A stretch of 64,000 nt of DNA, taken from assembly GCF_023638055.1 (NCBI RefSeq), contig NZ_JAKRVY010000001.1:62001-126000 (forward strand), written 5' to 3'. The position numbers and the translations under genes were made by a program. The stretch comes from Natranaeroarchaeum aerophilus (lineage in GTDB: Archaea; Halobacteriota; Halobacteria; Halobacteriales; Natronoarchaeaceae). The notes under the pieces are model-generated. The model saw only the letters and a list, made by a program, of their open reading frames with translations, searched no databases and was not told the origin of the DNA. Positions within the stretch are counted from its first letter, which is position 1; the number at the start of each line of letters is the position of its first letter. Positions 35,637 to 45,738 of this stretch are shown here, piece by piece.

Positions 35637-36536
35637 GTGTCCGACACGACATCGGCCGAGGTGCCGGAGTCCGGGAGTGACAGCCCTGTCGTCCTGGTTA
35701 CCGGCGCTGGCTCGGGGATCGGCGCGGCGACAGCGCTTGCGTTCGCCGAGAAGGGCTGGACGGTGTACGCGACGGACGTCGAGACGCCGTTGTCCGAGGA
35801 GATTCAGGCACGCTGTCGGACGCGCGAGCTGGACGTCACCGACGACGAACAGTGTCGGGCAGTCGTTGCGGACGTACTCGCGGAGACAGGCCGACTCGAC
35901 GTGCTGGTGAACAACGCGGGCTACGCCGTACCGGGGGCGATCGAGGAAGTGCCGGTCGATGAGACAAAAGCGGAGTTCGACGTGCTGGTTCACGGTCCAC
36001 ACCGGCTGATCAGGGAGGTGCTGCCCGCGATGCGCGAGCAGGGATCGGGGACTATCGTCAACGTCTCCAGCGTGCTCGGGCTGGCCGCCTATCAGGGGCT
36101 GGGCAGCTACGCGGCAGGAAAGGCCGCGATGGAGGCGCTGTCGGACTCGCTCCGGCTGGAGCTGCGCGGAACCGGGGTTGACGTCGTCCTCGTCGAGCCG
36201 CCGTGGGTCGAGACGCCCTTCGCCGACGACGCCCGGGCGGAGCTCGCCGGGCGCGAGCGCCACGAGAGCTACGCGGAGACGTACGCCGCGCTGGAGGACG
36301 GCTGGGCACTGGACGGCGGGCCGCTCGCGCTCTCCCCCGAGCGGGTAGCCGATACGATCGTCGCCGCGGCGACCGACCGCTCGCCACGGGCACGATATCC
36401 TGTCGGGATCGTGGCGACGTTCATCAGGTGGACGCGCTGGTTTCCGCCCGCGCTCCTCGATCCGATCCGGCGCGCGTTCGGGTGGGCAACGACCCGGATT
36501 GGACGGATTGACGCACGCCTGAGACGATGGCGGTAG
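35637..36536 (+). CDS. Short-chain dehydrogenase/reductase (SDR)
   Basis: 299 residues from GTG 35637. The cofactor motif TGAGSGIGAATALAFAEKG is near residue 23, with D after TVYATDV suggesting NAD preference. LVNNAGYAVPG, the catalytic SSVLGLAAYQGLGSYAAGKAAMEA (Ser...Tyr-x-x-x-Lys) and VEPPWVETPF are classical SDR features. The C-terminal 50 residues are basic and hydrophobic (FIRWTRWFPPALLDPIRRAFGW), perhaps for membrane association. The substrate is probably an alcohol or ketone; not determinable here. Confidence 0.9.
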   Translation: MSDTTSAEVPESGSDSPVVLVTGAGSGIGAATALAFAEKGWTVYATDVETPLSEEIQARCRTRELDVTDDEQCRAVVADVLAETGRLDVLVNNAGYAVPGAIEEVPVDETKAEFDVLVHGPHRLIREVLPAMREQGSGTIVNVSSVLGLAAYQGLGSYAAGKAAMEALSDSLRLELRGTGVDVVLVEPPWVETPFADDARAELAGRERHESYAETYAALEDGWALDGGPLALSPERVADTIVAAATDRSPRARYPVGIVATFIRWTRWFPPALLDPIRRAFGWATTRIGRIDARLRRWR

Positions 36537-36604
36537 TGGGACGGCACGCAACAACCTGAACGCCAACACGCAGGTTTTTGTTCGTGGGGAACGGCCAATT
36601 GGCT

Positions 36605-37024
36605 ATGAACTATCGGGAGGTCACGACGACCGGGGAGTACCTCGCGAGCTTAGAGCACGGTGCGGACTGGCGCGAGGAGATCGAAGCCCTCGCGGGCGAG
36701 GTCGACGCCGACGCGGCGTGGTTCACGGCACTGGGGGCGGTCCAGGACGCCGAGGTGTGGTTCTACGATCAGGACACCACCGAGTACGAGTGCGTCTCCT
36801 TTGACGAACCGCTGGAAGTCGCAGGCTGTGTCGGGAACGTCTCCTTGCTCGATGGCGAGCGGTTCGCTCACACCCACGCCGTCCTCTCGCGGCCGAGCGG
36901 CGAGGCCCTCGCGGGGCATCTGGATGCCGCGACCGTCTGGGCGGGCGAGGTGTACATGCGGACCTTCGAAGAATCACTGGAACGGGACCACGACGAACGA
37001 ACCGATCTGGATCTCTGGTTATAG
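36605..37024 (+). CDS. PPC (DUF296) domain protein
   Basis: 139 residues from ATG 36605, about 28 nt after gtttttgtt. The fold signature of the PPC/DUF296 domain is clear: EYLASLEHGADWREEIEALAGEVDADAAWFTALGAVQDAEVWFY, then VSLLDGERFAHTHAVLSRPSGEALAGHL, with the metal-binding-like histidines (HTH...H). In plants the domain accompanies AT-hooks; in prokaryotes single-domain trimers of unclear role are known. Its stop is followed immediately by the polC ATG, so it is the promoter-proximal gene of the DP2 operon. Confidence 0.85.
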   Translation: MNYREVTTTGEYLASLEHGADWREEIEALAGEVDADAAWFTALGAVQDAEVWFYDQDTTEYECVSFDEPLEVAGCVGNVSLLDGERFAHTHAVLSRPSGEALAGHLDAATVWAGEVYMRTFEESLERDHDERTDLDLWL

Positions 37025-40000
37025 ATGCGAGACGAAGACGAACGCTACTTCGACCGGCTGGAAACGGAACTCGACGCCGCGATGGACGTCGCCAGCGAGG
37101 CGAAAGCACGCGGCGGCGACCCGAAGCCGGAGGTCGAGATCCCCATCGCCAGGGACATGGCCGACCGCGTCGAGAACATCCTCGGCATCGACGGCGTTGC
37201 CGAGCGCGTCCGCGAACTCGAAGGGGAGATGAGCCGCGAGGAGGCCGCACTCGAACTCGTGACTGACTTCGTCGAGGGGCGGGTCGGCGAGTACGACTCG
37301 CGCGACGGCAAGATCGAAGGCGCGGTCCGAACGGCGGTCGCCCTGCTGACCGAGGGCGTCGTCGCGGCACCGATCGAGGGGATCGACCGCGTCGAGATCA
37401 ACGAGAACGACGACGGCACCGAGTTCGTCGCGGTCTACTACGCCGGGCCGATCCGTTCCGCGGGCGGGACCGCACAGGCGCTGTCGGTGCTGGTCGCCGA
37501 CTACGCTCGCTCGCTGCTCGACGTCGACGAGTTCAAGCCCCGCGACGACGAGGTCGAGCGCTACGCCGAGGAGGTCGGCCTCTACGACAAGGAAACCGGC
37601 CTGCAGTACTCGCCCAAAGACAAGGAGACGAAGTTCATCACCCGAAACTGTCCGATCATGCTCGACGGCGAGGCGACCGGCGAGGAGGAAGTCTCGGGCT
37701 TCCGGGATCTCGAACGGATCGAGACGAACAGCGCCCGTGGCGGGATGTGTCTCGTCCTCGCCGAGGGGATCGCGCTGAAAGCCCCGAAGATCAAACGCTA
37801 CACGCGGAATCTGGAGGAGGTCGACTGGCCCTGGCTTGACGACCTGATGGACGGTACGATCGGCAAGGACGACGGGGACGCCGACGAAGGCGACGAGGAC
37901 GAGAGTGAGGACGAAGACGGCGGCGAGGCCGGGGCTGACAAAGCCGACGAACCGGCCGAGCGCGAGGGACCGCCGCGGGCCGAACCGAACGGCAAGTTCC
38001 TCCGGGACCTCATCGCCGGGAGGCCAGTCTTCTCACACCCGAGCGAGGAGGGCGGCTTCCGCCTTCACTACGGGCGGGCACGGAATCACGGCAACGCGAC
38101 CGCCGGCGTCCATCCCGCGACGATGCATCTGGTCGATGACTTCCTCGCGACCGGCACCCAGATCAAGACCGAGCTGCCCGGCAAGGCCGCAGGCGTCGTG
38201 CCGGTCGACACCATCGAGGGGCCGACGGTCCGGCTGGCCAACGGCGAGGTCCGCCAGATCGACGACCCGGCGGAGGCCATCGAGATCAGAAACGGCGTCG
38301 AGAAAGTCCTCGACGTCGGCGAGTATCTGGTCAACTACGGCGAGTTCGTCGAGAACAACCACCAGCTCGTGCCCGCGGGCTACACCGTCGAGTGGTGGGT
38401 CCAGGAGTTCGAGGCGGCCGGAGCGGACGTCCAGGCGATGCGGGACGATCCGGGCGTCGATCTCGCGGACCCCGACCCCGAGGAGGCGCTCGACTGGGCC
38501 ACCGAGTACGACGCGCCCCTGCACCCGAACCACACCTGTCTCTGGCACGACATCGACGTCGAGGCGTTCGAGGCGCTCGTCGCGGCCGTCGAGGACGGGA
38601 CAGTCGACGCGGACGTTCCGGCGATCGAACACAAGAGCGTCGAGCCGTCGATCCTCGACGTGCTCGTACTGCCGCGTTCCGAGACCGTCCGGGAGGCCAT
38701 CGAGGCGCTCTTGCTCGAACACACCCAGACTGACACGACACTGCGGATCCCCGTGTGGCGGCCGTTCGTGCGCTCGCTTGGCTTCGCAGTCGATGGCGAG
38801 GACCTCACGCGGACGTGGGACGAGCTGTCGGCCGACGCCCGGTCGTGGCCCAACGCCGTCGAAGCCGTAAACGAGGTCGCACCCTTCACTGTCCGGGAAC
38901 GCTCGCCGACCCGTGTCGGAAACCGGATGGGCCGACCCGAAAAGTCCGAATCACGCGAGCTCAGCCCCGCCGTTCACACCCTCTTCCCGATCGGCGAGGC
39001 CGGGGGTACCCAGCGCAACGTCGCCGACGCGGCCAAACACGCCGACTCGATGACCGACACGCCCGGCGAGGTCGAAGTCGAGGTCGGCCGCCGTGAATGT
39101 GTCGACTGTGGCGAACACACGTTCAAAACCCGCTGTCCGGAGTGTAACGGCCATACGGAGCCACACTACGAGTGTCCCGACTGTGAAAGCCGGCTGTACC
39201 CCGACGAGTCGGGCCGGGTCTACTGCGACCACTGTGAGGTCGAGGGCACCAGCGTGGAGACGCGCGTCGTCGACGTCCACGCGGAGTACCGCAATGCGCT
39301 CGAATCCGTGGGCGAACGCGAGAACGCCTTCGAGATGCTCAAAGGCGTCAAGGGGCTGTCCTCGCACAACAAAACGCCCGAGCCGATGGAGAAAGGCGTC
39401 TTCCGTGCAAAACACGGCGTCTCCTCGTTCAAGGACGGCACCGTCCGGTACGACATGACCGACCTGCCGATCACGTCGGTCCGCGCGAGCGAACTGGACG
39501 TCACGGTCGACCAGCTACGCGGGCTGGGCTATCAGGAGGACATCCACGGCGAGGCGTTAACTCACGAGGACCAGCTCGTCGAGCTGAAAGTGCAGGACGT
39601 CGTTCTCTCCGACGGCGCGGCGGAACACATGCTCAAGACCGCGGACTTCGTCGACGACCTGCTGGAGAGCTACTACGGGCTCGACCCCTACTACGAGGTC
39701 GAGGACCGCGAGGAACTGGTCGGCGAGCTCGTCTTCGGGATGGCCCCCCACACCAGCGCGGCAACCGTCGGACGCGTAATCGGCTTTACGAGCGCAGCCG
39801 TGGGGTACGCGCATCCGTTCTTTCACGCGGCAAAACGCCGGAACTGCTTCCATCCCGAGACGGAGATCACATATCGCTCACCCGACGGAGAGTGGGAGCG
39901 AGTCGAGATCGAACAGTTCGTCGAGGAGCGCCTCGACGAGCCGAGAACGGATGACTTCGGGACACTGGTCGAAGAACTCGACCAGCCACTGTATGTCCCA

Positions 40001-42676
40001 TCGATGGACGAAGACGGCCAGTCGACTGAGCAGCGGATCGCGACGATCTCGAAACACCCGTCGCCGAACCACCTGATAAAGATCCAGACAACCAGCGGGA
40101 AGCAGCTCCGGGTCACCCCGGACCATTCGATGCTTCGATGGGAAGACGGCGTACAGCGAGTGCCAGCCAGTCAGATAGAAGTCGGAGACTCCATTCCGAC
40201 CCGTTCTACGGGACCCGCTGACCGAACCGCATCAACACAGGCAGTGTCCGCAGACGGTGGTCAAACGGATACCGAGACCGTCGAACGCGTCGAGATAAGC
40301 GAATCCGACGTAGAGCACACGTACTGCCTGACAGTTGAACAAACGAACACTCTTGAAGCGAATAAGTTGCTGTCTGGTCAGTGCGATGGCGACGAGGACT
40401 GTGTAATGTTGCTCATGGACGGGCTGTTGAACTTCAGTAAGACGTATCTCCCCGATCAACGCGGCGGAAGTGTCGCAGAGAACTCACGGCTCGTTGCTAC
40501 TGATCCAACAGGAAACGTACGGTTTCTCACTTTTGAAGAGTTCTGGAACAGACTGGACTCGCCGATCGAATATGACGGCAAATTCCGAAAAAAGACCTGT
40601 CGCTCGGAAGGCTGGAAGACCTATGCGTTTGATAACAACCACGACGCATCACTGCAACCCATCGAGAAAGCCATCAGATACGAGACAGACGAAGAGCTGC
40701 TTCGGATCGAAACGCAATTCGGGCGATCACTGGAGTTGACGAAACACCACAGCCTGTTCCGCTACGGTGAGAACGGTATCGAAGAGATCGCTGGTGCCGA
40801 ACTGTCGGAGGGCGATCTCGTTGTTGCGCCCCAACAGCTCGATATCGAACCGACCGAAACGACGATCGACGTAACTGAGTGTGTGGAAAAGCCGTACGTC
40901 GTAATCGATGACCACGTCGAGGATCTGCTCACCACGATCTGGGAAACGACCGAGAGGGGGGGTCCAGAACACAGGGCGTTCGACAGCGGGCTGTCGTACC
41001 GGCTCTCGAGACGAAAAATTTCGTGGGAACAATTTACGACGATTCTCGACACGGCTGGCTATGAGATCCCGACAGATCTAAAAATCGGGTTCGAGGGTTC
41101 GACAGATGGGATCGCACGCGAGATCGACATCGACGAGGACTTCGCCTGGCTGCTGGGACTGTATGTCGCTGAGGGGTCCCGTTCGAGTGTCTGTCCAACC
41201 ATCCACAACTCGGACGAAGACGTGATCGATCATGCAGCCGATATAATCGAATCGACACTCGGTCACGAGCCCGAGCGACGGTGGTCGAACCGAAGTTACG
41301 AACTCCGGTTCCCAGCTGTCTTCCGTGCTGTGCTGACTGATCTCGGCCTCGGTGCACATGATAGCTACAGTTCCAGTGAAAAAACGGTCCCCGAGTGTAT
41401 CCGCAACGCACCGCTGGACACTGCCCGAGCGTTTCTACGGGGATTCATCACGGGTGACGGAAGCGATAGTACGGACGATAACTGTACGACGGTTGCGTTC
41501 CATACGACCAGCGAAGATGTAAAAGATGGAATGGTCTTCCTGCTTCACCGGTTCGGACTTGTTGCGAACATCTCGTATCAGGAGAACCGCCCAGGGAATC
41601 GACAGCCGATCTATGCGGTTACCGTTTCAGGCGGAGCAACTGACAATCCCTTGCACCGCGTATTGAACGGCAAGCAACCGTATCAACCAAAAAGTCTCGT
41701 TGTGGCAATTCCTGAGGCGCTGCGGGAACTACGCGAAATGGAGATACGAGATATCAAAGAGATCATTCCAAAGTATCTCAAGCGTCGGTCGAACATCTCA
41801 TTGGCCAAACTTACCGAGATATTCGAAGAGCTCAACAGCCGATCACTTCCGGCTGCTGCCGAATCAAAGATTGAGGATCTTCGCCCGCTGGTGAACGGTG
41901 ATCTGTCATATCTGAAGATACAATCCGTTGATACTGTCGATTATAATGGATATCTGTATGACCTTCAGGTCGGAGGTGAGCCGATTTTCACAGCTAACTG
42001 GCTCTATGCGCACAACTCGATGGACGCCCCATTAGTAATGTCCTCCCGAATCGATCCCGCCGAGATCGACGACGAGGCTCACAACATCGACGTCGTCGAC
42101 GAGTACCCCCTGGAGTTCTACGAGGCGGCCCGCGAGATGGTCGATCCAGAGGACGTCGACATCGAGATCGCCGAGGCGACGCTGGGGACCGATCGGGAGT
42201 ACACCGACTTCGGGCACACCCACGACACCGCGAATATCGCGCTCGGGCCGGACCTGTCGGCGTACAAGACGCTCGGCTCGATGATGGATAAGATGGACGC
42301 CCAACTGGAGATATCGCGGAAACTGCGGGCGGTCGACGAGACCGACGTCGCAGAGCGCGTCATCGAGTATCACTTCCTGCCGGATCTGATCGGGAACCTG
42401 CGGGCCTTTTCGCGGCAGGAGACCCGCTGTCTGGACTGTGGGGAGAAGTACCGCCGGATGCCGCTGAGCCGGGAGTGCCGGGAGTGTGGCGGACGTGTGA
42501 ACCTCACGGTTCACGAGGGATCGGTCAACAAGTACATGCAGACTGCGATCACGGTCGCCGACGAGTTCGGCTCGCGCGATTACACGAAACAGCGCCTCGA
42601 AGTGCTGGAGATGAAACTGGAGAGTATCTTCGAGGATGATACGAACAAACAGAGCGGGATCGCGGACTTCATGTGA
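37025..42676 (+). CDS. polC: DNA polymerase D large subunit DP2, containing two inteins
   Basis: 1883 residues as translated; 1188 after removal of two inteins (941-1119 and 1149-1664), a normal haloarchaeal DP2 length. Extein features: an N-terminal helical domain, an acidic low-complexity insert (about 280-322), zinc modules (CVDCGEHTFKTRCPECNG..., ECPDCESRLYPDESG, CDHC near 690-740), the catalytic NCDGDED motif split by intein 1, SMDAPLVMSSRIDP after intein 2, a last zinc finger (CLDCGEKYRR...CRECGG) and a C-terminal PIP-like tail (QSGIADFM). PolD is the replicative polymerase of euryarchaea; the small subunit DP1 is not in this window. Co-transcribed with the PPC gene. Confidence 0.97.
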   Translation: MRDEDERYFDRLETELDAAMDVASEAKARGGDPKPEVEIPIARDMADRVENILGIDGVAERVRELEGEMSREEAALELVTDFVEGRVGEYDSRDGKIEGAVRTAVALLTEGVVAAPIEGIDRVEINENDDGTEFVAVYYAGPIRSAGGTAQALSVLVADYARSLLDVDEFKPRDDEVERYAEEVGLYDKETGLQYSPKDKETKFITRNCPIMLDGEATGEEEVSGFRDLERIETNSARGGMCLVLAEGIALKAPKIKRYTRNLEEVDWPWLDDLMDGTIGKDDGDADEGDEDESEDEDGGEAGADKADEPAEREGPPRAEPNGKFLRDLIAGRPVFSHPSEEGGFRLHYGRARNHGNATAGVHPATMHLVDDFLATGTQIKTELPGKAAGVVPVDTIEGPTVRLANGEVRQIDDPAEAIEIRNGVEKVLDVGEYLVNYGEFVENNHQLVPAGYTVEWWVQEFEAAGADVQAMRDDPGVDLADPDPEEALDWATEYDAPLHPNHTCLWHDIDVEAFEALVAAVEDGTVDADVPAIEHKSVEPSILDVLVLPRSETVREAIEALLLEHTQTDTTLRIPVWRPFVRSLGFAVDGEDLTRTWDELSADARSWPNAVEAVNEVAPFTVRERSPTRVGNRMGRPEKSESRELSPAVHTLFPIGEAGGTQRNVADAAKHADSMTDTPGEVEVEVGRRECVDCGEHTFKTRCPECNGHTEPHYECPDCESRLYPDESGRVYCDHCEVEGTSVETRVVDVHAEYRNALESVGERENAFEMLKGVKGLSSHNKTPEPMEKGVFRAKHGVSSFKDGTVRYDMTDLPITSVRASELDVTVDQLRGLGYQEDIHGEALTHEDQLVELKVQDVVLSDGAAEHMLKTADFVDDLLESYYGLDPYYEVEDREELVGELVFGMAPHTSAATVGRVIGFTSAAVGYAHPFFHAAKRRNCFHPETEITYRSPDGEWERVEIEQFVEERLDEPRTDDFGTLVEELDQPLYVPSMDEDGQSTEQRIATISKHPSPNHLIKIQTTSGKQLRVTPDHSMLRWEDGVQRVPASQIEVGDSIPTRSTGPADRTASTQAVSADGGQTDTETVERVEISESDVEHTYCLTVEQTNTLEANKLLSGQCDGDEDCVMLLMDGLLNFSKTYLPDQRGGSVAENSRLVATDPTGNVRFLTFEEFWNRLDSPIEYDGKFRKKTCRSEGWKTYAFDNNHDASLQPIEKAIRYETDEELLRIETQFGRSLELTKHHSLFRYGENGIEEIAGAELSEGDLVVAPQQLDIEPTETTIDVTECVEKPYVVIDDHVEDLLTTIWETTERGGPEHRAFDSGLSYRLSRRKISWEQFTTILDTAGYEIPTDLKIGFEGSTDGIAREIDIDEDFAWLLGLYVAEGSRSSVCPTIHNSDEDVIDHAADIIESTLGHEPERRWSNRSYELRFPAVFRAVLTDLGLGAHDSYSSSEKTVPECIRNAPLDTARAFLRGFITGDGSDSTDDNCTTVAFHTTSEDVKDGMVFLLHRFGLVANISYQENRPGNRQPIYAVTVSGGATDNPLHRVLNGKQPYQPKSLVVAIPEALRELREMEIRDIKEIIPKYLKRRSNISLAKLTEIFEELNSRSLPAAAESKIEDLRPLVNGDLSYLKIQSVDTVDYNGYLYDLQVGGEPIFTANWLYAHNSMDAPLVMSSRIDPAEIDDEAHNIDVVDEYPLEFYEAAREMVDPEDVDIEIAEATLGTDREYTDFGHTHDTANIALGPDLSAYKTLGSMMDKMDAQLEISRKLRAVDETDVAERVIEYHFLPDLIGNLRAFSRQETRCLDCGEKYRRMPLSRECRECGGRVNLTVHEGSVNKYMQTAITVADEFGSRDYTKQRLEVLEMKLESIFEDDTNKQSGIADFM
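39845..40381 (+). other. Intein 1 in DP2: 179-residue mini-intein with C-terminal Gln
   Basis: The insertion interrupts the conserved AKRRN/CDGDED junction. Block A starts with Cys941 (CFHPETEITY). Block B contains the TPDH motif (RVTPDHSMLRW). The C-terminal block is EHTYCLTVEQTNTLEANKLLSGQ, followed by extein Cys1120. There is no LAGLIDADG endonuclease, so it is a mini-intein. The last residue is Gln, not the usual Asn. Gln-ending inteins at the same PolII site are known from Pyrococcus and do splice, so activity is plausible. Confidence 0.9.
40469..42016 (+). other. Intein 2 in DP2: 516-residue Ser1 intein with LAGLIDADG homing endonuclease
   Basis: It begins at Ser1149 (SVAENSRLVATDP) after extein LPDQRGG and ends HN, followed by extein Ser1665 (SMDAPLV). 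Block B has LTKHHSLFRY. The two dodecapeptide motifs of the homing endonuclease are LLGLYVAEGS and LRGFITGDGS, each with the acidic catalytic residue. The block F/G region reads GYLYDLQVGGEPIFTANWLYAHN. Third-codon positions are visibly more AT-rich than in the surrounding extein (for example gattataatggatatctg), a sign of separate origin. Confidence 0.92.
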
Positions 42677-43062: not shown

Positions 43063-44310
43063 GTGAACACGGCTGCCGACATCGACGAGCGAGCGAAGTC
43101 GCTGCTAGGGTACTCGCGCTGGTGGCAGGTCGCCGCCGCCGCGGTGATGATGGCACTCGTGAGCCCGTACCAGTACGTCTGGTCGTCTCTGGAAGGACCG
43201 CTCGCGGCCGAACTCGACGCCTCGCTGTCCGCGCTGGGCTTTGTCTTCACCCTGTACGTCGTTGCGATGTCGCTGATCCAGTTCCCGGCGGGCTGGTGGC
43301 GGGACCGCTACGGTCCGCGAGCGGTGACGTTCGTCGCAGGACTGCTCGCGGGCGGCGGCTATGTCGCGCTCGCCTTCGCCACCGAACTGTGGCAGGTATA
43401 CGCCGCCTACGGGATCGGCGCGGTCGGCGTCGGGATGGTCTATACGGTTGCGGTCAACACCGCAGTCAAGTGGTTCCCAGACCAGCGCGGACTGACCACC
43501 GGAATTGGTACGATGGCCTTCGCCGCCGGGAGTGCGGCGTTCGTCCCGTTCGTTCGCTACATGGTCAACGTGGATGCACTGTCGACCGGCCTCTGGAGCA
43601 TGGGCGTCCTCATCGCGGTCGGTATCGTCGTGGGGACCGTCGTACTCAGGGACCCGCCCGTGGGCTGGCACGAGGCGACGGACGAGGGATCGACCGACGG
43701 CGGGATCGAGCAACCGGAGACCAGCCGGGTCCAGTACACCTGGCGGGAGATGGTCCGGACCTGGCAGTTCTGGGTCATGTACTTCATGTTCATCGCGGTA
43801 AGCGCTGCGGGGCTGATGATCACCGCCCGGAGCATCCTCTACGCGGAGCAGGCCGGTCTGACGGCTGGCGTCGCAACGGTCGCCGCAACCGCACTGCCGA
43901 TCGCCTCGGGGGGCGGCCGCCTCGTCGTCGGCGCGCTCTCCGATCGATTCGACCGCGAGCGCGTGACCGCACTCTCGTTTCTGGCCTGTGGCGTCGGAAC
44001 GGTTGGAATCGTCGTCCTCGCCGGGATCGACAGCGGCGTCGGGTACGTACTGACCGTCTCCATCGCCGTCTTCTTCTGGAGCTCGCAGTTCTCGCTGTTT
44101 CCCAGTCTGGTCGGCGACTACTACGGGCCCAAACACTCCTCGACCAACTACTCGCTCGTCTACTCGGGGAAACTGTGGGGTGGCGTGTTCGGCGGCGGCG
44201 TCGTCGGGTGGCTCGTCGGCATCATCGGCTGGGATGCCACGTTCCTGGTCGGCGGCGCATTGGCTCTGGCTGCTGGTGTTGCCGGGATCTTCCTGCGTGC
44301 GCCGCAGTGA
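43063..44310 (+). CDS. MFS transporter, OFA (oxalate/formate antiporter-like) family
   Basis: 415 residues, 12 membrane helices, central loop of about 40 acidic residues after helix 6. The segment GMVYTVAVNTAVKWFPDQRGLTTGIGTMAF is highly characteristic of the OFA family, as is GLMITARSILYAEQAGLT in the second half. The helix 2-3 loop GWWRDRYGPRAVTF is the MFS A-motif. Likely a monocarboxylate or related organic acid carrier; the exact substrate is unknown. Single-gene unit with a leaderless promoter. Confidence 0.88.
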   Translation: MNTAADIDERAKSLLGYSRWWQVAAAAVMMALVSPYQYVWSSLEGPLAAELDASLSALGFVFTLYVVAMSLIQFPAGWWRDRYGPRAVTFVAGLLAGGGYVALAFATELWQVYAAYGIGAVGVGMVYTVAVNTAVKWFPDQRGLTTGIGTMAFAAGSAAFVPFVRYMVNVDALSTGLWSMGVLIAVGIVVGTVVLRDPPVGWHEATDEGSTDGGIEQPETSRVQYTWREMVRTWQFWVMYFMFIAVSAAGLMITARSILYAEQAGLTAGVATVAATALPIASGGGRLVVGALSDRFDRERVTALSFLACGVGTVGIVVLAGIDSGVGYVLTVSIAVFFWSSQFSLFPSLVGDYYGPKHSSTNYSLVYSGKLWGGVFGGGVVGWLVGIIGWDATFLVGGALALAAGVAGIFLRAPQ

Positions 44311-44829: not shown

Positions 44830-45738
44830 ATGGAGATTGTCGTGTTCGGGGCGGGTAGCCTGGGGAGTCTACTGGGTGGACTCCTTGGCAGCGAACATCA
44901 AGTAACGCTTGTCGGTCGTGACCCTCACATCGCTGCAGTCCGTTCCGGTGGGTTGTCGATCACCGGGACGTTTGACCAGAAAGTACGCCCCGATGCGACG
45001 ACCGACGGAACGGGGTTGACGGCGGATCTGGCCGTCGTCACTGTCAAGAGCTTCGATACGGAAGACGCCGCCCGGAGCCTCGCAACTGGGGAGTACGACG
45101 TCGCGTTATCGGTACAGAACGGGATCGGAAACGAGGAGACCCTGAGTGAGCATCTCGACTATCCCGTGCTGGCCGGGACGGCGACCTATGGCGCACGGCT
45201 CGACGAGCCGGGTCACGTCGACTGTACCGGGAAGGGAAAGGTGACGCTCGGCGCACGCAACGGTGGGACGTCATCCACCGCGGACGATATCGCCGCGACG
45301 TTCACCGCTGCAGGCATCGACGCCAGCGCAGTACCGGATATGCCGCGCCGACTCTGGGAGAAACTGGCAGTCAACGCGGGCATCAACCCGGTCACCGCAC
45401 TCTCACGCGTCCGAAACGGTGCTCTCGGGGAGGAACCGCCAAGTGAGATAGCCCGTACCGCCGCAGTTGAGACGGCACGCGTCGCCAGAGCCGAAGGAGT
45501 TGATCTAGCCGACGAAACCGTCCGATCAAGAGTCGATACGGTGGTCGACGCGACGGCGAGAAACCACTCCTCGATGTATCAGGACGTGCTTTCCGGGCGG
45601 CGCACGGAAATAGAGGCGATCAACGGAGCAATCCTCGAGCGTGCGGAGGGTCACGGGATCGACGTGCCGGTGAACCGGACGTTGGCGGGGCTACTCGGGG
45701 CGTGGGAGCGCGAAAACACGAACAACGGGATACGTTAG
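44830..45738 (+). CDS. panE: Ketopantoate reductase family protein (2-dehydropantoate 2-reductase)
   Basis: 302 residues. The NADP-binding GAGSLGSLLGGLLG is at the N-terminus. VQNGIGNEETL and the catalytic-lysine segment EKLAVNAGINPVTALSRVRNG are conserved ketopantoate reductase features, with the C-terminal SSMYQDVLSGRRTEIEAINGAI signature. The enzyme reduces ketopantoate to pantoate for coenzyme A synthesis. Haloarchaea often have several family members, so the exact substrate is not certain. It overlaps the convergent NifU-like gene by a few bases at the stops. Confidence 0.85.
   Translation: MEIVVFGAGSLGSLLGGLLGSEHQVTLVGRDPHIAAVRSGGLSITGTFDQKVRPDATTDGTGLTADLAVVTVKSFDTEDAARSLATGEYDVALSVQNGIGNEETLSEHLDYPVLAGTATYGARLDEPGHVDCTGKGKVTLGARNGGTSSTADDIAATFTAAGIDASAVPDMPRRLWEKLAVNAGINPVTALSRVRNGALGEEPPSEIARTAAVETARVARAEGVDLADETVRSRVDTVVDATARNHSSMYQDVLSGRRTEIEAINGAILERAEGHGIDVPVNRTLAGLLGAWERENTNNGIR

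Follow-up and report, generated by a model that had tools for sequence, protein, structure and literature searches.

The polC gene of Natranaeroarchaeum aerophilus, which encodes the large subunit DP2 of DNA polymerase D, carries two inteins at the catalytic centre of the enzyme, and the same double arrangement was found in 34 of 391 haloarchaeal genomes (~9%), with a spacing of 29 residues in every one. The downstream intein (intein b) is always followed by a serine; in close pairs of alleles with and without b, the flank upstream of b is unusually divergent and the flank downstream is not, and the upstream intein (intein a) of these pairs is depleted of motif-intact endonucleases. We consider it probable (about 0.72) that a resident intein a without an endonuclease was joined by a mobile intein b that spreads by co-conversion, and that pairs with two live endonucleases are disfavoured; as part of this explanation, the two would have arrived independently, as selfish inteins, at two recurrent DP2 sites.

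Anatomy and position of the two inteins

Within the window (the whole stretch of 64,000 nucleotides that was analysed), polC is complete and lies on the forward strand at 37025..42676. Its product, 1883 aa unspliced and 1188 aa spliced, matches the Pfam PolC_DP2_N, central and cat domains as well as the NCBIfam model PRK14714 (2189 bits; cut-off 1791), and the neighbouring genes are ordinary chromosomal ones, namely a short-chain dehydrogenase (35637-36536), a PCC-domain protein (36578-37024), an MFS transporter (43063-44310) and a ketopantoate reductase (44830-45738). Intein a (39845..40381, + strand) is a mini-intein of 179 aa with Cys1, a TPDH block B, a terminal Gln and Cys at +1, and its endonuclease domain is absent. 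Intein b (40469..42016, + strand) has 516 aa, with Ser1, TKHH, a terminal His-Asn and Ser at +1; it is of the LAGLIDADG homing endonuclease type and retains the catalytic acids of both LAGLIDADG motifs, Glu at 41171-41173 (LLGLYVAEG) and Asp at 41456-41458 (FLRGFITGDG). The Pfam model Intein_splicing matched both inserts (46.0 and 63.8 bits, respectively; curated cut-off 35.8), and LAGLIDADG_3 and Hom_end matched the second only. GC3 is 0.665 and 0.591 in the inteins vs 0.868 and 0.845 in the N- and C-exteins.

A genome of the same genus (G006, allele L094) contains neither insert; its DP2 ORF has 1190 aa and reads KRRN-CDGDEDC...RGG-RMDAP. Both inserts are thus in-frame, Hint-containing and absent from homologues, and their first residues, block B, terminal and +1 residues fit class 1 inteins, so that the chance of their being anything other than intein sequence is negligible. 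On recomputation, the coordinates, 29-aa spacing, summed insert length (179+516 = 695 residues) and 1883-aa product given in a first-pass annotation of this DNA all proved exact, and its typing of the pair as a Cys1...Gln mini-intein without endonuclease and a Ser1...Asn LAGLIDADG intein was borne out by the Pfam matches and by reading of the sequence; the intein-free homologue in G006 likewise lacks the 695 residues, as that annotation would have it. Each intein probably splices by itself and in either order, through class 1 chemistry with cyclisation of Gln in intein a and of Asn in intein b. In several site-a mini-inteins, many of them from double alleles, and in that of the window, the His of block F is replaced by Asn (TNTLEAN, TNRVVAN), and four b-free mini-inteins at site a (L058, L062, L066, L078) end in Asn rather than Gln, an exchange of the two residues at one site. 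The genome of N. aerophilus itself (G000) contains several further intein-like matches (for example, C16:22675-23928): six sequences in it match intein a and four match intein b, counts that include the two polC inteins.

Alignment to the solved structure of Pyrococcus abyssi DP2 (6hms_B) placed intein a between N954 and C955 and site b just before K984, 29 residues past C955. The Asn at -1 of site a (39842..39844, + strand) is the equivalent of N954, which together with D956 and D958 ligates Mg in the catalytic site of PolD (PMC10721889); the codons of the two Asp (40385-40387 and 40391-40393) lie in the 29-residue extein between the inteins (40382..40468, + strand). Because intein a separates N954 from D956 and D958, the catalytic triad is split in unspliced DP2. 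The location at the PolD active site claimed in the first-pass annotation was therefore confirmed by the alignment, and it can soundly be inferred from the sequence that polymerisation requires the removal of both inteins. The paper on the crystal structure of DP2 (PMC4996933) had already pointed to an intein site that several species have in the catalytic loop.

An AlphaFold2 model of the stretch from the first intein through the linker to the second (mean pLDDT 78.5, pTM 0.62) showed a Hint-type fold for each intein and a linker of low confidence (residues 192-216 <50). The first-pass annotation had raised the order or interdependence of splicing. The model provides no positive evidence that splicing of one intein depends on the other and appears compatible with either case, and the sequence offers nothing in favour of ordered or interdependent splicing; such coupling of a and b as the sequence does show concerns the loss of endonucleases and the homing of DNA, neither of which the annotation had considered. 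In Foldseek, PI-PkoII (2CW7) matched most of the model, and many single Hint inteins, including the P. abyssi PolII intein (2LCJ), matched as well. PI-PkoII, an archaeal intein endonuclease, is the best match of intein b in both sequence and fold, sharing its Hint domain and LAGLIDADG endonuclease; with ~20% identity in the fold match, however, it is a different intein. Intein a resembles the PolII (polC) mini-inteins of P. abyssi and P. horikoshii (2LCJ, 5BKH), which occupy the same N/CDGDED site and have Cys1, a terminal Gln, a +1 Cys and no endonuclease; its alignment with the P. abyssi intein begins at residue 1 (match over residues 1-132), and the P. horikoshii intein also matches. Its place between the equivalents of N954 and C955 and its terminal Gln identify it as the PolII/polC N/CDGDED intein (a probable pol-IIa allele), from whose Pyrococcus members it differs in having a halophile host, Asn for His in block F and a second intein 29 residues downstream.

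Distribution of the pair and state of the endonucleases

Our survey covered 391 haloarchaeal genomes, one per species and interrelated, and DP2 was present in all of them. Site b was filled in 41 genomes, spread patchily over 22 genera and 5 families, at E <= 4e-44, with the next best match at 3e-33. Among these b-bearing genomes intein a was absent in 7, a mini in 25 and large in 9, and among the b-free genomes it was absent in 150, a mini in 77, large in 117 and unreadable in 6; for these assignments 180 alleles were read directly and combined with searches and ORF lengths, ORF length alone serving for unfetched genomes, and a check of the ORF-length classes on the 180 alleles led to the correction of one error (G103, a 228-aa mini). 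Site a was filled more often alongside b than expected (34 vs 26.1; genus-stratified p=0.0003). A scan of contigs with intein b alone returned a single match, Halorientalis marina (L122), which has the same double arrangement, and no relatives of intein b were found in viral contigs. The rarity implied in the first-pass annotation was not supported, in that both sites are recurrent, the pair fills them at a constant gap in 34 genomes and neighbouring inteins in MCM had already been studied (PMC10643990).

In the passages of Soucy 2014 that concern these sites (PMC4071816), pol-IIa is recorded in 75 and pol-IIb in 9 haloarchaeal sequences, the former being common with many minis and the latter rare, and Halosimplex carlsbadense is listed under both with one accession. 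Our a/b pair probably corresponds to pol-IIa/pol-IIb, b being equated with pol-IIb as the sole second site seen. Unlike the present survey, those passages are without sites, spacing, +1 residue and endonuclease pairing. Both intein sites were already known and the double arrangement belongs to a known kind; what the survey adds is the apparent import of the +1 Ser, the endonuclease depletion in doubles and possible scars of intein loss.

Of the 41 site-b inteins, 34 keep both LAGLIDADG catalytic acids, the window's among them. For large a-inteins the corresponding figures were 57 of the 58 read in b-free alleles and 4 of 9 in doubles. When minis were counted as not live, an intein a endonuclease judged live from its two motif residues was present in 4 of 34 doubles vs ~116 of 194 single-a alleles, approximately half of the single large a-inteins being unread and taken as live at the 57/58 rate (Fisher 1.3e-7). 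The depletion was also seen within family strata (17.1 expected, p=5e-6) and within genus strata (10.1 expected, p=0.0014), the latter being a partial control under which some shared ancestry remains. Because four doubles (L013, L014, L026, L027) keep both endonucleases motif-intact, the exclusion of double-live pairs is not absolute. Four doubles (L035-L038, from G278, G318, G315 and G022) contain two large inteins that have both lost endonuclease catalytic acids and are still near full length.

In several double alleles the nearest relative of mini-a sits in a b-free congener (L005/L065, L015/L043, L016/L053, L017/L055), and because the mini-a of doubles is closest to that of such congeners, addition of b to a resident a is favoured. 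Between the window and G232, intein b is 74% identical and intein a just 49%, which points to different histories of the two. The distances of a and b nevertheless correlate beyond N-extein distance (partial Mantel r=0.43), so some joint transfer of a and b is possible. Habitual joint travel of mini-a and b, as the main mode, was not upheld by the nearest relatives or by the divergence tract described below.

The +1 residue and the upstream flank of site b

The residue that follows the site-b intein is Ser in 41 of 41 genomes and is always encoded by a TCN codon (TCG at 42017..42019, + strand, in the window), while Arg (54), Gln (50), Lys (29) and Ser (6) stand at this position in the fetched b-free alleles. 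A pattern scan for Ser, Thr, Cys and AGR codons in the +1 position, run over the 391 genomes, with matches outside DP2 discarded and with other +1 residues read individually in the fetched genomes only, placed Ser in 6 of ~344 intact b-free alleles (TCN in G059, G226 and G133; AGT in G066, G103 and G025, of one genus) and detected neither Thr nor Cys at +1 of any b-free allele. Intein b thus seems to supply the nucleophile for its own splicing, and in species with b the mature polymerase is left with a Ser in place of the basic residue or Gln of relatives. The extein column most strongly associated with b, among the 675 that vary, was +1 (V 0.95), followed by -8 (Tyr vs Phe, V 0.52), with -10 in fourth place. 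When each b-bearing allele was compared with its nearest b-free allele, -8 differed in most pairs, always as Tyr with b and Phe without it and never in reverse; Tyr(-8) also occurs in about one third of b-free alleles. At site a, no nearby extein residues were linked to occupancy, the best columns being distant (V <= 0.43).

The imprint of intein b extends into the DNA upstream. Between -45 and -15, in close pairs that had been matched on divergence over the whole gene, and with the direction of change not polarised pair by pair, divergence was 31% for pairs in which one allele bears b, vs 14.5% for b-free pairs and 11% for pairs in which both bear it (p=0.0005, with b labels permuted within clusters). 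The excess weakened farther upstream (-66..-45, p=0.01; -87..-66, p=0.0035 but small), and downstream of b, out to +540, the same close pairs showed no excess divergence (+3..+45, p=0.11; beyond, p >0.6). Against L094, the 45 bp before site b in the window (40424..40468, + strand, including Tyr(-8) at 40445-40447) had a divergence of 0.289, vs 0.11 gene-wide, and divergence was raised over the whole 87 bp. Only the close pairs carry this signal; over all pairs, codon identity as a function of the distance to site b had no local signal, distant pairs probably being saturated. The upstream excess resembles a short tract of co-conversion on one side only; this one-sidedness counts against the explanation preferred below, since tracts left by simple break repair should extend both ways. 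The three b-free alleles with a TCN Ser (L101 from G133, L107 from G059, L163 from G226) have Tyr(-8) and the three AGT-Ser alleles have Phe; the former, small in number, may be relics, or scars, of precise loss of intein b.

Origin of the pair

In the explanation that we prefer, intein a would be an old and mostly vertically kept resident whose endonuclease has been lost and which would persist because the split of the triad at N/C-D-G-D makes its splicing a requirement for cell survival. Intein b would be a mobile LAGLIDADG intein that probably cuts at RGG/(R/Q/K)MDAPLV in b-free genes; when the break is repaired from a b-bearing template, the intein would be copied in along with ~45 bp upstream of it and the +1 codon, whereby Arg, Gln or Lys would become the Ser nucleophile; the patchy distribution and the flank import are indirect support for such homing. 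Since the target sites lie 87 bp from each other, an allele in which both endonucleases are live would bring about two close breaks, and alleles with a single live endonuclease may spread or survive better, which would explain the 30 of 34 doubles whose intein a is motif-dead or a mini. As the cause of the depletion, the data fit either break interference or redundancy of a's endonuclease given that of b. A rule of one live endonuclease, under which double-active DP2 alleles would be selected against or fail to spread and the arrival of b would drive the older intein to a mini or motif-dead state, is a tentative proposal to which we give less than even odds.

The closest parallel is the MCM-a/MCM-d pair of Haloferacales, which likewise consists of neighbouring inteins in a replication protein and in which the +1 Pro is co-converted to Ser at d, just as the Ser at +1 appears to have been imported in DP2; two active inteins in this pair home poorly into an empty gene (Turgeman-Grott 2023, PMC10643990). 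In Hfx. mediterranei, however, both MCM endonucleases are kept and active, whereas the upstream intein of DP2 has usually lost its own, and the empty site has Pro at +1 in MCM-d but Arg, Gln or Lys in DP2, which also has a measurable upstream tract. In the same study the fraction of inteins with homing endonucleases in Halobacteriales was similar in single-intein (59.3%) and multi-intein genes (57.9%), so the depletion of double-live pairs in DP2 is not general. That study also raised the question of how often a mini-intein homes with its neighbour's help. Co-homing could in principle account for our pairs: the endonuclease of b would copy the whole stretch from a to b, a would ride along, and a's unneeded endonuclease would decay under relaxed selection with no interference between breaks. 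The over-representation of a with b within genera, the weak excess divergence out to -87..-66, the partial Mantel correlation and the divergence of the whole 87 bp between the window and its intein-free congener are all consistent with this account. The excess nevertheless drops steeply past -45 bp, so that most tracts would end before intein a, the four allele pairs named above mean that a was already resident, and the MCM double inteins are without evidence of co-homing (PMC10643990); we regard co-homing as the main route as rather unlikely.

It is also conceivable that Ser(+1) and Tyr(-8) were in place before b arrived, b entering only the rare alleles with this combination and co-conversion being absent, and the three b-free alleles that combine a TCN Ser with Tyr(-8), as well as the frequency of Tyr(-8) among b-free alleles, would suit such a choice of host. 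Ser is, however, found in only 6 of the b-free alleles, close relatives of b-bearing alleles at an N-extein distance of 4-9% have Arg or Lys at +1 (L005/L106, L018/L117, L023/L108), and synonymous sites 15-45 bp upstream, which for the most part probably lie beyond the endonuclease target, diverge too, making this account improbable. We consider it more improbable still that the inteins form a coupled regulatory pair, mutually dependent, in which slow or conditional (redox or salt) Cys1...Gln splicing gates the polymerase. The position at the catalytic triad would suit such a gate, the Pyrococcus PolII inteins have a Cys1/Cys+1 disulfide and that of P. abyssi is faster with Gln -> Asn (PMC8175363), and conditional splicing is known for other inteins; but both inteins are missing from 150 of the 391 species and b occurs alone in 7, so that neither is needed, a and b combine in many states, and the predicted model consists of two separate Hint-type folds joined by a low-confidence linker.

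The pair at the catalytic centre of a replicative polymerase in ~9% of the sampled haloarchaeal species amounts to a natural experiment, with replicates, on selfish elements that sit close together. It adds a second case, and a numerically strong one, of an intein that appears to bring its own +1 nucleophile and so to alter the mature host protein, and the 34 natural doubles make the mutual effects of neighbouring inteins on mobility testable. If the rule of one live endonuclease is true, DP2 would be a natural case of break interference shaping intein evolution.
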